Assembly (NCBI RefSeq): GCF_003857035.1
Contig: NZ_QGSY01000275.1
Span: forward strand, 62,001 to 126,000
Reading direction: 5' to 3'
DNA length: 64,000 nucleotides
From: Micromonospora arida
Lineage (GTDB): Bacteria > Actinomycetota > Actinomycetes > Mycobacteriales > Micromonosporaceae
Below the pieces are notes generated by a model, which was not told where the DNA came from, made no database searches, and saw only the letters and a list, made by a program, of their open reading frames with translations. Each line of letters begins with the position of its first letter. Within the stretch, counting starts at the first letter, position 1. Of the stretch, positions 1 through 59,894 are shown piece by piece. The translations under genes and the position numbers were made by a program.

Positions 1-433
1 CGCCAGCCGGGCCGTCTTCGCCGCCCGGTCCGGTCGGGCGGCGAGGACCACCCGGGTACGCGAGTTGCTGGCCGCCGTGGAGATCCGTGGCGCCGGCGAC
101 GACCAGGAGATCCGCTTTCTGTCCGGCGGCAACCAGCAGAAGGTCGTGCTGGCCCGATGGCTCGCGCTCAACCCGCGGATCCTGCTCTTCGACGAGCCGA
201 CCCGGGGGATCGACGTGGGAGCGAAGTCAGCCATTCACGATCTCGTCCGCCGCCTTGCCCGTGATGGCGCGGCCGTGCTGATGATCTCGTCCGATCTACC
301 GGAGCTGCTGGGGATGAGTGACCGGATCGTCGTCATGCGGGACGGCCACGTCGCGGGCGAACTGCCCGCCGGCGCGACCGAGGAGGAGGTCGTCGCGTTG
401 GCGGTCGGCACCGTGCGGGAGCCGGCCCAGTGA
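1..433 (+). CDS. Sugar ABC transporter ATP-binding protein, C-terminal fragment
   Basis: The reading frame is open from base 2 and stops at 433, so only the last ~143 codons are in the window. The fragment carries the ABC signature LSGGNQQK, a Walker B segment ending in FDEP, the D-loop region TRGIDVG, and the ISSDLPE...SDRI segment that in RbsA/MglA/XylG-type ATPases replaces the usual H-loop. Those proteins have two fused nucleotide-binding domains; this is the end of the second. It would power import through the two permeases that follow. The stop codon overlaps a GTG in the tandem repeat (GTGA), so translation may run on into the repeat. The family is clear; the sugar cannot be told from this fragment. 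Confidence 0.93.
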
Positions 434-555
434 GCGCGAGGAGTGAGCCGGGTTTGCGAGCCCCGCAGTCGCGAACCGAGGTGACCCAGTGAGCGCGAGG
501 AGTGAGCCGGGTTTGCGAGCCCCGCAGTCGCGAACCGAGGTGACCCAGTGAGCGC
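426..555 (+). repeat. 59-bp tandem repeat (two full copies plus 12 bp) joining two ABC genes
   Basis: Two identical 59-bp units (426-484 and 485-543) are followed by the first 12 bp of a third (544-555). Each unit begins with CCCAGTGAGCGC and ends with GAGGTGA. GTG codons at 430 and 489 each open a 20-codon frame ending in TGA at 490-492 and 549-551; these stops overlap the next GTG, the last being the permease start at 548. The gap between ATPase and permease is thus a chain of GTGA stop/start junctions, each with a GAGG-type ribosome-binding motif just upstream. Whether the 20-residue peptides are made is unknown. Confidence 0.85.
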
Positions 556-1519
556 ACTGTCGCTGTTGCCGGCCCGGCGTTCCGTACCGGGCGTGTTCGT
601 GGCCCTGACCCTGACCCTGACGATCGGCTGGCTGGTCGTCCTGCTCGACGGGGGTCAGCTCTTCAACCAGTCCACGACGGTGAGTCTGCTGCATGTGGCC
701 GCCGGCCTCGGCCTCGTCGCGGTGGGCCAGACCCTGGTCATCCTGGGAGGCTCGCTCGACCTCTCGGTGGCGTACGTGATCAGCCTCAGCACCCTCGTCG
801 CGGCCGAGACGATGAACGGCAGCGACGGCGCGGTGCTGCCGGCGATCGGCCTGGTGCTCGTCGTCAGCGCCGGCGTCGGGCTGCTCAACGGGCTGCTCGT
901 CACCAGGTTCCGGGTCAACGCGTTCATCGCGACCCTCGGCGTCGGGCTGCTGCTCAAGGGTTACCTCGACAACGGCTACGACGGCCCGGCCGGCACCACC
1001 GCACCCTCGCTGGTGCACGCGCTCGGCTACCAGCGCATCGGGCCGCTGCCGGTGTCGTTCCTGCTGCTGATAGCGGTCACCGCGGCGGCCTGGTTCGCGC
1101 TCTCGCGGACCCGCTTCGGCCACCACCTGGTCGCCGTCGGCGGGGATCCGGAGGTGGCCCGGCTCTCCGGCGTCCGCAACGACCGGGTCCTCGTCACCGC
1201 CCACGTGCTGTGCTCGATGTGCGCAGGGCTCGCCGGCATCTACCTCGCCAGTCGGCTCGGCTCGGGCGCCCCACGCGTCGGCACCGAGGGCCTCTACGAC
1301 CTGGAGTCGATCGCCGCGGTGGTGATCGGCGGTACCGCCCTCGCCGGTGGGCGCGGCGGCGTCATCGGCACGGTCGGTGGGGTGCTGCTGCTGGCCAGCA
1401 TCGACGCCATCTTCAACCAGCTCGAGGTCGACGCCTTCTTCAAGCAGGTGATCCGGGGCGTCATCATCATCGCCGCGGTCGCCGTCTACGCCCGCCGGGC
1501 CATGCGAAAGGCGGCCTAG
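548..1519 (+). CDS. Sugar ABC transporter permease (BPD_transp_2 family), first subunit
   Basis: This 323-residue, very hydrophobic protein is of the RbsC/AraH/XylH type and forms half of the membrane channel of a CUT2 sugar importer. The family motif appears as GGSLDLSVAYV near residues 66-76, and a conserved GGTALAGGRGG loop lies about 50 residues from the C-terminus. About eight to ten membrane segments are visible. The GTG at 548 is chosen because it directly follows the repeat and overlaps the upstream TGA. The second permease starts 2 bp after its stop, so the pair is translated together. The substrate is probably a monosaccharide, judging by the epimerase gene downstream; the exact sugar is not visible. 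Confidence 0.92.
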   Translation: MSALSLLPARRSVPGVFVALTLTLTIGWLVVLLDGGQLFNQSTTVSLLHVAAGLGLVAVGQTLVILGGSLDLSVAYVISLSTLVAAETMNGSDGAVLPAIGLVLVVSAGVGLLNGLLVTRFRVNAFIATLGVGLLLKGYLDNGYDGPAGTTAPSLVHALGYQRIGPLPVSFLLLIAVTAAAWFALSRTRFGHHLVAVGGDPEVARLSGVRNDRVLVTAHVLCSMCAGLAGIYLASRLGSGAPRVGTEGLYDLESIAAVVIGGTALAGGRGGVIGTVGGVLLLASIDAIFNQLEVDAFFKQVIRGVIIIAAVAVYARRAMRKAA

Positions 1520-1521
1520 CC

Positions 1522-2505
1522 ATGCAGACCGTCCAGCCCCGTTCCCTGCCGCTGCGTCTGCCGCGGGTGCGTCCCGGTGGTGTCCTGCCGATCCTCGCGA
1601 TCCTCGCGGTGCTGTTGGTGCTCGTCGGCATCCGGCAGCCCGACTTCCTGGCCCCGCAGTCGCTGATGTCCTTCCTCGGCCGTTCGGCACCGATCATCCT
1701 GCTCGCCGCCGGTCAGTACTTCGTGATCGTGTCCGGCGAGTTCGACCTCTCGGTCGGTTCCCTGGTCACCGCTCAGGTGGTGGTCGCCGCCCGGCTGATC
1801 GACAGCGACCCGGCGCGTACCTGGCCGGTGGTGCTGCTCCTGCTCGCCTTCGGAGTGCTGGTCGGGCTGGTCAACGGCCTGATCACGACGCGGCTGCGGG
1901 TGCCGTCGTTCATCACCACCCTCGGCATGTTCCTGATCCTCGTCGGCGCGGTCTACCTCTGGTCCGACGGCGCCCCGAAGGGTGGGCTCTCCGAGGAGTT
2001 CCGGCGGTTCGGCCGGCGGGCCTTCGAGGACGTGCCGCTGCTGGGCCGCGTGCCGTACGCGCTGCTGGTCCTGGTGGTCCTGGCGGTGGCGGCCGTGCTG
2101 CTGATGCGCTCGGACTTCGGTCGGACGCTGGTCGCCGTCGGCGACAACCCGCGCACCGCCGAGCTGAGCGGTGTACGCGTGTGGCGTACCCGGACCTTCG
2201 CCTTCATCCTCAGCGGGCTCGCGGCGGCGGTGGCGGCCATCCTCCTGGGCGGCTACAGCGGTGTGTCGTTCCAGGCCGGTGCCGGCCTGGAGTTCGGTGC
2301 GATCACCGCTGTCGTCCTCGGTGGGGTGGCGCTCGGCGGGGGTCGCGGCGCGGTCGTCGGGGCGATGCTCGGCGCGCTGACCCTCGAACTGCTGTTCGCC
2401 CTCATGAATTTCTACGGCGTCTCCGGCGCCCTCAGGTCGACCGTCCAGGGCGCGATCATCCTGCTCGCCGTGGCGGTCTCGGCAACCCGTTCTTCGTCGA
2501 GATAA
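1522..2505 (+). CDS. Sugar ABC transporter permease (BPD_transp_2 family), second subunit
   Basis: A 327-residue integral membrane protein, paralogous to the preceding permease and probably its heterodimer partner. It carries the family motif SGEFDLSVGSL near residues 73-83 and the C-terminal GGVALGGGRGAVVG loop. The frame is open far upstream, but ATG 1522 lies 2 bp after the previous stop and begins a normal short cytoplasmic N-terminus before the first membrane segment, so it is preferred. Two different permeases per transporter is the arrangement in some ribose, rhamnose and galactofuranose-type CUT2 systems. The binding protein follows after 13 bp. Confidence 0.92.
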   Translation: MQTVQPRSLPLRLPRVRPGGVLPILAILAVLLVLVGIRQPDFLAPQSLMSFLGRSAPIILLAAGQYFVIVSGEFDLSVGSLVTAQVVVAARLIDSDPARTWPVVLLLLAFGVLVGLVNGLITTRLRVPSFITTLGMFLILVGAVYLWSDGAPKGGLSEEFRRFGRRAFEDVPLLGRVPYALLVLVVLAVAAVLLMRSDFGRTLVAVGDNPRTAELSGVRVWRTRTFAFILSGLAAAVAAILLGGYSGVSFQAGAGLEFGAITAVVLGGVALGGGRGAVVGAMLGALTLELLFALMNFYGVSGALRSTVQGAIILLAVAVSATRSSSR

Positions 2506-2518
2506 AGGGGAAACCATA

Positions 2519-3703
2519 GTGCGACGTTCCATGGCGGCCATTGCCGCTGTCACCCTGCTGTCCCTTGCCGCCTGTGCCACCGACGAGCCGGCCGCGAGCC
2601 CGTCGGGAAGTGCGTCCGCCGCCACCGGGTCCGGCACCGGGGACCAGTCGAAGTTCTTCGTGCAGGCCGACTACGACGCCGAGTTGGCGCTGCTCGACGC
2701 GGCACCGACGGGCCCGGCCGACAAGCCGTGGGAGCAGGTGCTCAACCCGACGATGGTCGACACCGCCAAGTTCAAGAAGAACGGCCCACACAAGATCTGC
2801 TTCTCGAATGCGGCCCTGAACAACCCCTGGCGGCAGGTCGGGTTCAAGACCATGCAGGCCGAGGTGGAGGCGCAGAAGAGCCGCATCAAGGAGTTCGTGC
2901 ACGTCGACGCCGAGGGCAAGGACCAGAAGCAGATCGCGGACATCAACGATCTGCTCGGCAAGGGCTGCGACGCGCTCATCGTCTCGCCGAACACCACCGC
3001 CACGCTCACCCCAGCCGTCGAGGCGGCCTGCAAGGCCGGGCTGCCGGTCGTCGTCTTCGACCGTGGTGTCAACACGAAGTGCCCGGTGACGTTCATCAAC
3101 CCCATCGGCGGTTACGGGTTCGGCCACGTCGGGGCCGAGTTCGTCAGCCAGAAGATGAAGCCCGGCGGCAAGGTCCTCGCCCTGCGGATCCTGCCCGGCG
3201 TCGACGTCCTGGAGACCCGCTGGTCGGCGGCGAAGGTGGCGTTCGACAAGGCGAAGGTCGACGTCGTCGGTGTCGAGTTCACCGATGGTGATCCGGCCAA
3301 GACCAAGAAGATCGTCGACGACTACATCCAGCGGTACGGCACGATCGACGGGGTCTGGATGGACGCCGGAGCGGTGGCCGTCGCGGCGGTCGAGGCGTTC
3401 CAGGACGCGGGCAAGCCCGTTCCGCCGATGAACGGTGAGGACCAGCTCGACTTCCTGAAAATCTGGAAGGACAAGAAGCTCACCGCGATCGCGCCGACCT
3501 ACCCGACCTACCAGTGGCGTACGCCGATCATCGCGGCGCTGCGGATCCTCGACGGCCAGCAGGTGTCCAACCCGTGGAAGCTGCCGCAGCCGACCGTCAC
3601 CCAGGACAACCTGGACCAGTACATCGACGCGGGCATGCCGCCGCTGCACTACGCGATGTGCGGCTGCACCGACCTGCCCGGTTACCCGCAGCGCTGGAAG
3701 TAG
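2519..3703 (+). CDS. Sugar-binding lipoprotein of the CUT2 ABC transporter
   Basis: This 394-residue periplasmic-binding-protein-like protein (Peripla_BP_4 type) has a lipoprotein signal: a basic start, a hydrophobic stretch and the lipobox LAAC with Cys19. A Ser/Ala/Gly-rich tether follows. The GTG start at 2519 is supported by AAAGGGG about 8 bp upstream. The mature part shows a two-lobed pattern (SNAALNNPWRQVGFKTMQAE, then DALIVSPNTT and VVVFDRGVN) typical of ribose/xylose-type receptors. It is long for this class (usually 310-350), mainly through an N-terminal extension. It would be anchored outside the membrane and hand sugar to the two permeases encoded upstream. Confidence 0.92.
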   Translation: MRRSMAAIAAVTLLSLAACATDEPAASPSGSASAATGSGTGDQSKFFVQADYDAELALLDAAPTGPADKPWEQVLNPTMVDTAKFKKNGPHKICFSNAALNNPWRQVGFKTMQAEVEAQKSRIKEFVHVDAEGKDQKQIADINDLLGKGCDALIVSPNTTATLTPAVEAACKAGLPVVVFDRGVNTKCPVTFINPIGGYGFGHVGAEFVSQKMKPGGKVLALRILPGVDVLETRWSAAKVAFDKAKVDVVGVEFTDGDPAKTKKIVDDYIQRYGTIDGVWMDAGAVAVAAVEAFQDAGKPVPPMNGEDQLDFLKIWKDKKLTAIAPTYPTYQWRTPIIAALRILDGQQVSNPWKLPQPTVTQDNLDQYIDAGMPPLHYAMCGCTDLPGYPQRWK

Positions 3704-22817: not shown

Positions 22818-24395
22818 ATGAGACGACCAGTCGTGTTGCGACGTCAGGCGGTACTGGCCGCGGCGGCTGCGGCGGCCGTGGTGATCGCGGCCGGGGTGGT
22901 GCTGCCGACCCCGCAGGCATCGGCGGCGGTCGGTAACGCCACCGGCTACGCCACCCAGAACGGCGGGACCACCGGCGGCGCGGGCGGGCAGACGGTGCGG
23001 GCCAGCACGGGCACGGCGATCCACGCGGCACTGTGCGGACGGACCAGCAGCAGCACCCCGATCACCATCGAGGTGACCGGAACGATCAACCACGGCAACA
23101 CCAGCAAGGTGTCCGGGTCGAGCTGCAACACCGCCGCGGGCGTGATCGAGCTCAAGCAGATCAGCAACGTCACCATCATCGGGGTCGGCAGCGGCGCCGT
23201 CTTCGACCAGCTCGGCATCCACATCCGTGATTCCAGCAACATCATCATCCAGAACGTGACAGTGCGGAACGTCAAGAAGTCGGGCTCGCCCACCTCCAAC
23301 GGTGGGGATGCCATCGGCATGGAGAGCACGGTCCGCAACGTCTGGGTCGATCACGTCACCCTGGAGGCCTCGGGCGGGGAGTCCGAGGGGTACGACGGCC
23401 TCTTCGACATGAAGGACAACACCCAGTACGTGACGCTGTCCTACAGCATCCTGCGCAACTCAGGTCGCGGTGGTCTCGTCGGGTCCAGCGAGAGCGACCT
23501 GTCGAACGGCTTCATCACGTACCACCACAACCTCTACGAGAACATCGACTCCCGCACGCCGTTGCTGCGCGGCGGGGTCGCCCACATCTACAACAACCAC
23601 TACGTGAGCCTGCATGAATCCGGGATCAACTCCCGGGCAGGGGCCAGGGCCAAAGTGGAGAACAACTACTTCCGCGACTCCAAGGACGTCCTGGGCACCT
23701 TCTACACCAACGAGCGCGGCTACTGGCAGGTCGCCGGCAACGTCTTCGACAACGTGACCTGGTCCAGCGCCGGCAGTGAGAACTACCCCGCCGGCCCCAA
23801 CCCGACCTCCAACACCACGGTCAGCATCCCGTACCCGTACAGCCTGGACGGGGCGAACTGCGTGCCGGACATCGTCCGTCAGACGGTCGGCGCCAACACG
23901 GGCCTGAGGGTGTCCAACGGCAGTTGCTCGCCGCAGACCCCGCCGCCCACGACGCCTCCGCCGACCACGCCTCCGCCGACGACACCTCCGCCGACCACGC
24001 CTCCGCCCACGACGCCTCCGCCCGGCGGCGGGACCAACCTCAGCCTGGGCGCCGGCGCCGACGGCTCCAGCAAGGCCAGCGGGACCAGCTACGGCAACGT
24101 GCGTGACGGCAACCTGAGCACCTACTGGTCGCCGGCCGGGTCGACCGGCACGATCTCGATCAAGTGGGGCTCGGCGACTCAGGTGTCCCGGGTGGTGATC
24201 CGCGAGCCGTCCGGTACCCAGGGCTCCATCGGGTCCTGGCAGCTGATCAACAACGACAACGGAGCCGTCCTGGCCTCCGGTAGCGGGGCCGGTTCGATCA
24301 CCTTCTCGGCCGCCGCGATGAGCAAGATCAACTTCAAGATCAACAGCTCCAGCGGTACGCCACGGGTCGGTGAGTTCGAGACGTACGCCAGCTAG
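22818..24395 (+). CDS. Secreted pectate lyase (PL1) with Pro/Thr linker and C-terminal carbohydrate-binding domain
   Basis: A 525-residue exported protein; ATG 22818 follows GGTGAGG. The signal ends near ASA (residue ~36). Residues ~37-370 form a PL1 beta-helix: DAIGMEST...WVDHVTL (calcium-side Asp), FDMKDNTQYVTLSYS, and SRTPLLRGG containing the catalytic arginine. A linker of five PPPTT repeats follows, then a ~115-residue C-terminal beta domain (NLSLGAGADGSSKASGTSYGNVRDGN...GEFETYAS) of the discoidin-like type found on actinomycete pectinolytic enzymes. It cleaves polygalacturonate by beta-elimination outside the cell. A LacI-type operator overlaps its promoter. Confidence 0.93.
   Translation: MRRPVVLRRQAVLAAAAAAAVVIAAGVVLPTPQASAAVGNATGYATQNGGTTGGAGGQTVRASTGTAIHAALCGRTSSSTPITIEVTGTINHGNTSKVSGSSCNTAAGVIELKQISNVTIIGVGSGAVFDQLGIHIRDSSNIIIQNVTVRNVKKSGSPTSNGGDAIGMESTVRNVWVDHVTLEASGGESEGYDGLFDMKDNTQYVTLSYSILRNSGRGGLVGSSESDLSNGFITYHHNLYENIDSRTPLLRGGVAHIYNNHYVSLHESGINSRAGARAKVENNYFRDSKDVLGTFYTNERGYWQVAGNVFDNVTWSSAGSENYPAGPNPTSNTTVSIPYPYSLDGANCVPDIVRQTVGANTGLRVSNGSCSPQTPPPTTPPPTTPPPTTPPPTTPPPTTPPPGGGTNLSLGAGADGSSKASGTSYGNVRDGNLSTYWSPAGSTGTISIKWGSATQVSRVVIREPSGTQGSIGSWQLINNDNGAVLASGSGAGSITFSAAAMSKINFKINSSSGTPRVGEFETYAS
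23941..24024 (+). repeat. 15-bp coding repeat for the PPPTT linker
   Basis: Five near-identical 15-bp units encode PPPTT inside the pectate lyase linker. Third positions vary (acg/acc/aca), so the array is selected at protein level. Such arrays can vary in copy number between strains. Confidence 0.85.
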
Positions 24396-46371: not shown

Positions 46372-46470
46372 ACGTTAAGCCGATCGATGTCTGGGCGTCA
46401 ACGCTGAAAACTTCCGGAAATTCATCACATGACCTGCCCAGCGCTGAGTGGCCAGCGGTCGAAACTTTCG
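46372..46470 (-). promoter_or_regulatory. Xylanase promoter with CGAAA/TTTCG elements
   Basis: On the minus strand TTGACG (46401-46396) and TAACGT (46377-46372) are 18 bp apart. Upstream lie AACTTCCGGAAATT (~46410-46423) and the perfect 11-bp palindrome CGAAACTTTCG (46460-46470); just downstream are GGAAACTTGC and CGAAACGTTA elements. Similar GAAA/TTTC palindromes are known before streptomycete xylanase genes. The region 46241-46606 is otherwise gene-free; transcripts would have a ~125-nt leader. Confidence 0.6.
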
Positions 46471-46521
<51 letters not shown>

Positions 46522-59607: not shown

Positions 59608-59622
59608 GTGGCGTAGTGCGAC

Positions 59623-59750
59623 CGGCGGGCCGGCGGCGCGAGTGCGCGATCGGGCGGCGGGTCGGCGGCGCGAGTGCGTGATCGACCGGCGGGCCGGCGG
59701 TGCGAGTGCGCGATCGGACGGCGAGTCGGCGGCGCGAGCGCGTGATCGAC
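59623..59750. repeat. 32-bp tandem repeat, four copies in a 64-bp dimer pattern
   Basis: Four contiguous 32-bp units (59623-59654, 59655-59686, 59687-59718, 59719-59750) share CGGCGGG.CGGCGG.GCGAG.GCG.GATCG. Units 1 and 3 agree at variable positions (…CCGG…GCGATCGG), as do units 2 and 4 (…TCGG…GTGATCGAC), so the array grew by doubling a 64-bp pair. There are no spacers. Confidence 0.85.
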
Positions 59751-59894
59751 TCGGCTTTCGTGAAGTCGGCCGATCACGCCGCCGAGGACCCCGCGACTTC
59801 AAGGAGCGCGAGTGGATCTTGCTTTCCGGCACCGCCCGACGCGGCGTTGGGCGCGGGCGTCGACCGGGGTGCGCGGGCACGCCGGGACGTTGAA

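Follow-up and report, generated by a model that had tools for sequence, protein, structure and literature searches.

MIRUs (mycobacterial interspersed repetitive units), reportedly described by Supply et al. in 1997, serve mainly as typing markers of tuberculosis bacteria and lie in the same orientation as the neighbouring genes. In the sections available of a 2025 review it is stated that they appear to be mobile and insert at start codons, where an inner ORF is joined at -4 nt to the gene (PMC12548453), and an excerpt of another paper places them at 41 positions in one genome (PMC2734929). The sources disagree on the range of these elements, which is given as 'many mycobacteria' in the review (PMC12548453) and as only M. 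leprae and the tuberculosis complex in the accessible part of PMC4213456. Related to this, some termini of REP elements supply the flanking ORFs with a stop codon, according to an extract of PMC3733652. No repeat of this kind seems to have been described from Micromonospora, Micromonosporaceae or Salinispora among the matches listed from the open-licence literature, and the available portions of PMC12306157 and PMC3733652 make no mention of Micromonospora.

The repeat analysed here is very probably a small non-autonomous mobile element of the Micromonosporaceae, which settles at the NTGA stop/start overlaps of operons and whose mini-frames would keep the operon coupled. It was noticed in a stretch of 64,000 nucleotides from Micromonospora arida, the whole of which is called the window hereafter. 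Tandem Repeats Finder reports at 426-555 a tandem array of period 59 with 2.2 copies and 100% matches. Positions 485-543 reproduce 426-484 base for base, and 544-555 give the first 12 bases again; the last 8 bases of this partial copy are the permease's own GTGAGCGC. In the register of the genes, the units lie at 430-488 and 489-547. The features of the locus are as follows:

2..433, + strand: C-terminal part of an ABC transporter ATPase, whose gene begins before the window (PF00005, E 1.1e-8; ORF end at 433)
417..421, + strand: GGGAG, Shine-Dalgarno-like, before the first GTGA and inside the ATPase gene
430..488, + strand: unit 1, 59 bp (2 mod 3), with a mini-frame of 20 codons at 430-492 (family match C222:62430)
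478..481, + strand: GAGG, Shine-Dalgarno-like, within unit 1
489..547, + strand: unit 2, equal to unit 1, with a mini-frame of 20 codons at 489-551 whose TGA overlaps the permease GTG (family match C222:62489)
537..540, + strand: GAGG, Shine-Dalgarno-like, within unit 2, before the permease start
548..1519, + strand: ABC permease 1, 323 aa, with its start GTG 548 in a GTGA (PF02653, E 6.4e-35; ORF)
1522..2505, + strand: ABC permease 2, same operon, joined to permease 1 by a junction without a unit (PF02653, E 3.5e-43)
2519..3703, + strand: periplasmic binding protein, same operon (PF13407, E 8.8e-37; ORF)

Both permeases are assigned by Pfam to BPD_transp_2. The initial annotation had described two identical 59-bp units with GTG mini-frames and TGA/GTG overlaps between the two ABC genes, and the ORF list and the repeat finding agree with this description: each unit between ATPase and permease opens a mini-frame at a GTG and closes it on a TGA that shares bases with the following GTG, and both mini-frames encode the same peptide of 20 aa. 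The GTGA junctions number three (430, 489 and 548), the first of which contains the stop TGA of the ATPase (431-433). A GAGG motif had also been placed before every junction; this is correct for 489 and 548 and not for 430, which is preceded by the GGGAG of the ATPase gene. The array is not due to chance, since its unit recurs as a family in the genome. The model search of this genome gave no further family matches in the contig of the window beyond the two units. Other tandem repeats of the window are a period 32/64 repeat at 59619-59755, where the coding score is low, a CGGCGAC motif in 7.4 copies with 97% matches at 46469-46520, also in DNA of low coding score, and a 15-bp repeat of the CCGCCCACGACGCCT type in 5.4 copies at 23943-24023, which as a guess could perhaps be the Pro/Thr-rich linker of a protein.

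Of the 34 distinct cores found at first, 27 were used to build a sequence model of the repeat, named R1. This model gives 88 matches at E<=0.1 in the genome of the window, 87 of which (C96:2871, with 16.9 bits, was left out) were grouped into 60 sites: 40 single, 14 double, 5 triple and 1 quadruple. A full copy measures about 56-68 bp; the DNA of the family is conserved, and the variants differ in the middle of the core. Tandem copies within one site have, as judged by eye, a common site-specific spacer. At the level of the Micromonosporaceae, at least 53 of 121 genomes match at E<=1e-6, including all 8 of the genus, and at the level of the class at least 3 of 296 genomes match R1, namely the window's own and two congeners; both counts are lower bounds, with about 48 and about 19 candidates scored per genome, respectively. 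The initial annotation had pointed to similar dispersed sequence in Micromonospora genomes, and this proved correct: a collection of 84,980 species gave 71 stretches with the exact 48-base variant, all of them titled Micromonosporaceae, mostly Micromonospora and also Verrucosispora, Plantactinospora and strain KJ-029.

The position of the copies with respect to genes was scored with gene calls that derive from a codon-usage score trained on the window and not from annotation. In the genome of the window, the upstream coding frame has its TGA at unit position +1 (the second base of the unit) in 36 of the 60 sites, an NTGA able to start a coding frame stands behind the unit in 48, and both features are present in 30. 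The 24 sites without the upstream TGA at +1 and the 12 without a downstream NTGA start include degenerate or partial copies, units that read on in frame into the downstream gene, and four cases in which the upstream gene has its stop at an inner TGA (+14). Where the downstream start is present (48 sites), the frame of the last unit closes exactly on its TGA in 35 cases and 3 bases early in 3. It had been proposed that copies would lie mostly at gene junctions and preserve the start/stop overlaps, and both points hold in the stretches chosen by the exact 48-base core alone. Once 6 of the 71 near contig ends were left out, 65 could be scored: the TGA of the upstream gene is in the first GTGA in 50, an NTGA gene start follows the unit in 57, both are found in 45, and 54 of the 57 downstream cases close in frame on that start.

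As controls, in the same loci an upstream stop was found at 144 of 5407 other RTGA and a stop together with a start at 52 of 5407, and an NTGA start stands behind 580 of 5433 random places over the same range. The downstream-start test is soft, as 1942 of the 5407 other RTGA in these loci also resemble coding starts, so that the random-place controls and the homology-based nuo set carry more weight. Besides, an NTGA lies exactly 8 bases past the core in 66 of 87 units, versus 30 of 4260 random places. The orientation follows that of the genes, with a co-oriented coding frame downstream in 55 of the 60 own-genome sites and in 63 of the 65 exact-core stretches. At some sites of the genome (for instance C17:2741, C2:22230, C33:32215, C66:36046, C80:8244 and C99:31701) frames run far past the junction, where they probably read on into the downstream gene; such units could correspond to an N-terminal extension or to a misannotated start. 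For gene finders, the upstream stop, the mini-frames and the downstream start of a filled junction may be misannotated as N-terminal extensions.

The same junctions also exist without the unit. The ABC junction was compared in 30 loci, the window's own included, which are those that matched best in a search of 101 genus genomes. Read by eye, the unit is absent from 10 of them, single in 5, single with an additional fragment in 1, double in 9, triple in 1 and quadruple in 1, whereas 3 (L080, L091 and L092) have another element at the same NTGA; the variation in copy number suspected for this junction thus extends from 0 to 4 units. At the unit-free junctions a single NTGA is common to both genes.

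A second comparison was made with the nuo operons of 40 genomes, including the window's own (L096-L135), one nuoG/H row (L116) being dropped. Of 266 junctions of seven overlapping kinds (B/C, C/D, D/E, F/G, G/H, J/K and M/N), 93 are filled; 92 of these were found by the pattern scan and one (nuoB/C of L134) was read from the sequence. The unfilled overlaps are short and mostly NTGA, but many of those at F/G and some of those at J/K are TAATG or TGATG. The kinds without overlap were never filled (A/B 0/36, H/I 0/40, K/L 0/40 and L/M 0/40), six pattern matches at nuoL/M being taken, from their sequences, as a native 64-nt spacer. The overlapping and coupled nuoE/F (0/39) and nuoI/J (0/40) were never filled, unlike the seven other overlap kinds. 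On a quick tree of the 40 genomes, made from pieces of nuoI, nuoL and nuoM, the fewest changes between filled and empty states add up to about 69 (6+11+13+9+9+8+13), the filled nuoD/E of L129 being scored as empty in this count. The genome of the window and its sister on the tree differ in state at five of the seven junctions. Part of these changes may reflect recombination between strains rather than transposition.

The lengths of the nuo inserts obey a rule. Measured from first to last NTGA in 92 of the 93 filled junctions (nuoD/E of L129 was left out), the inserts have 35 to 176 bases, and 84 of them are 2 mod 3, whereas 8 are not. An insert of such a length brings the end of its mini-frame onto the TGA of the downstream start; at nuoD/E most mini-frames end one codon early, at TGATGA. 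Lengths inherited from a common ancestor do not count as independent cases, and an element of constant length would obey the rule at no cost until indels arise. The distinct lengths were therefore counted as well, and 22 of 27 are 2 mod 3 (binomial p 4e-7 against one third). As a control, of 381 gene stops without a unit, 28 are followed over the same range by an NTGA start, and the distance is 2 mod 3 in 9 of them. With regard to single units, 131 of 161 distinct ones are 2 mod 3 and 5 are 1 mod 3, and the other 25, at 0 mod 3, are in frame with the sequence behind them.

Core and spacer compensate each other. A 15-nt spacer goes with most cores of 41, 44 and 50 nt and a 13-nt spacer with most of those of 46 nt, and the spacer is 0 mod 3 in 96 of 119 units with a 2-mod-3 core versus 1 of 42 with a 1-mod-3 core. 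It follows that the second half of the peptide differs among variants while the closure persists, and this is read here as selection acting on a translated frame that ends at the next start, not on the peptide. None of the 161 distinct cores has an in-frame stop, a count that weighs little, as a large part of the core was set by the search pattern. Of 163 distinct units, 146 have a Shine-Dalgarno-like stretch ahead of the next NTGA and 126 have one ahead of their own first NTGA, as compared with 357 of 3000 random 12-mers. Kept over many lengths, the 2-mod-3 rule would be genetic evidence for translation of the mini-frames and for selection on the hand-over of ribosomes at NTGA.

The rule is not confined to one sequence. 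A second family (GTGAGCGAGCG...GCGAAGCGAGG), of 80 bp and thus also 2 mod 3, is unrelated in sequence to the 59-bp unit; it was found in two of the ABC loci that have another element (L080:1954-2033, minus strand, and L092:1293-1452) and in loci L207-L236, and 50 of 61 genus genomes have a match to it. Over 32 sites (30 fetched loci plus L080 and L092), the upstream TGA is present in 24 and both features are present in 19; the downstream NTGA is present in 26, with closure in frame in 24 of these. A third sequence of about 57 bp was seen by eye nested within the unit at GAGCCCC^GCAGTCG in several nuo inserts, examples being nuoC/D and nuoD/E of L115, nuoF/G of L116 and nuoM/N of L101, L110 and L127; its length, a multiple of 3, keeps the reading frame.

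The explanation proposed here is that the element inserts at NTGA stop/start overlaps within operons, oriented in the direction of transcription. The first GTGA would serve both as the stop of the upstream gene and as the start of a mini-frame of about 19-23 codons, the unit would bring its own Shine-Dalgarno-like stretch (GAGG, AAGG or GGAG), and the mini-frame would end on the TGA of the next NTGA, which belongs either to the next unit or to the next gene. A ribosome finishing the upstream gene could restart on the overlapping GTG, read about 20 codons and restart again at the next NTGA; arrival, tandem growth and loss of units would all leave the operon coupled.

As to the means of movement, PF01797 (IS200/IS605, RAYT) has 0 matches in the 345 contigs of the window's genome, while 5 of 14 control genomes match, and mobilisation by IS200/IS605 or RAYT was dropped on this basis; no autonomous partner came to notice. 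A duplication of the Shine-Dalgarno stretch as target site (a 12-nt match at L072) was also discarded: over 29 sites, the match across the element is above the null only at -1 (0.66 vs 0.29) and weakly at -2, with no clear target duplication. The spacer looks element-borne, as similar spacers are present at different nuo junctions. It can be suggested, tentatively and with considerable doubt, that the element is not just tolerated at coupled junctions but aimed at them by an insertion route that recognises an NTGA behind a Shine-Dalgarno-like stretch and is common to several unrelated Micromonospora repeat families, which would then make up a class of 'translation-transparent' mobile elements whose common mark is the 2-mod-3 length and not the sequence. 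Such a route could perhaps run through mRNA or translation-linked DNA.

Other explanations of the array have to be weighed. Local tandem duplication by replication slippage, without any mobile element, would suit the identity of the two window units and the common spacer of arrayed copies noted by eye, but the same core occurs at 60 sites of the same genome and in other genera of the family, and orthologous sites are unit-free in many species. Slippage accounts for the growth of an array and not for its arrival; it is very improbable as the full explanation, and local slippage alone was ruled out by the dispersed copies and the empty sites. The initial annotation had spoken of a mobile or slippage element, and mobility, probably as transposition, is the part favoured by these two observations, although the identical arrayed units suggest that tandem duplication took place too. 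Very unlikely too, though somewhat less so, is a mobile repeat that lands at NTGA merely as a harmless site and acts as an untranslated spacer. This would explain the position equally well. However, an untranslated spacer has no reason to be 2 mod 3, as seen in 84 of the 92 inserts and, among distinct lengths, in 22 of 27, against 9 of 28 non-unit junctions, and the unrelated 80-bp family obeys the same length rule. Moreover, at least 36 of the 60 own-genome sites are at the stop of a gene, even though the window has, on rough gene calls, 120 intergenic DTGA versus 4 gene pairs overlapping by NTGA. With intergenic DTGA in such excess, chance landing followed by purging of harmful copies should leave many copies between operons, and few are observed.

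A functional gene for a 20-residue peptide, duplicated with its own start and stop, could be argued from the conserved DNA and from the mini-frame being open in 161 of 161 distinct cores, much of which was fixed by the search pattern. Nevertheless, core lengths of 41, 44 and 50 nt shift the frame of the 3' half with respect to 46 nt while closure is still kept, and the second family is unrelated in sequence; the peptide gene is thus extremely improbable, and it was dropped because the frames of the 3' half differ among variants. A structured RNA, a terminator, a promoter or a REP-type palindrome that sets downstream expression must be considered highly unlikely. The type A unit does fold at -23.6 kcal/mol (z -1.53), and a MIRU in the senX3-regX3 gap is said, in the accessible part of PMC4213456, to drive separate expression of regX3. 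Types B and C, however, show no better folding than shuffled sequence (z 1.22 and 0.50), window 400-600 has z -0.76, not one of the 12 predicted pairs varies at both of its positions across 27 cores, and five loci gave no Rfam match. Besides, a scan covering sigma-70-like promoters found none in window 380-600, where there is no terminator either, and the genome is without the Y1 transposase of REP-type elements. Structured RNA, terminator and sigma-70 promoter were accordingly dropped on folding, covariation, Rfam and the promoter scan. The coupling mobile repeat remains the preferred explanation.

Among known systems, REP/BIME elements with RAYT (Y1) resemble the unit in being short, dispersed, present in many copies and devoid of genes of their own. 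They differ from it in that the unit has no conserved palindrome or covarying pairs, keeps one orientation, lies at coupled operon junctions and occurs in a genome where no Y1 transposase was found. MITEs are likewise small non-autonomous mobile repeats; for the unit, neither terminal inverted repeats (by eye) nor a parent transposon came to notice, and there is no clear target duplication.

The closest likeness is to MIRUs, as judged from their description: i) MIRUs are short (40-100 bp) dispersed direct repeats, single or arrayed and of variable copy number, and here the unit has 59 bp and occupies 60 sites in 1-4 copies, ii) they insert at start codons with the inner ORF coupled at -4 nt, to which correspond the NTGA starts at 57 of 65 stretches and the closure in 54 of 57, iii) they follow the orientation of the genes, as does the co-oriented downstream frame here (55/60 and 63/65), iv) they occupy 41 places in one genome, compared with 60 sites. 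The difference lies in the host, since MIRUs are mycobacterial and the 71 exact matches all come from Micromonosporaceae; R1 had no match outside the genus of the window among the candidates scored in the 296 genomes of the class. By analogy, the unit would work on the MIRU principle and represent a known kind of element in a new place.

What the Micromonosporaceae contribute to this comparison is two unrelated families and a nested insert under one site rule, the empty and filled states of 40 genomes, and the 2-mod-3 rule with its compensating spacer. Micromonospora supplies one and the same junction dozens of times over, with and without an insert, also within the respiratory nuo operon, and such natural pairs in soil bacteria let the cost or effect of a coupling insert be read. 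The finding itself is well supported, and these repeats comprise more families, and come with better natural controls, than were found described.
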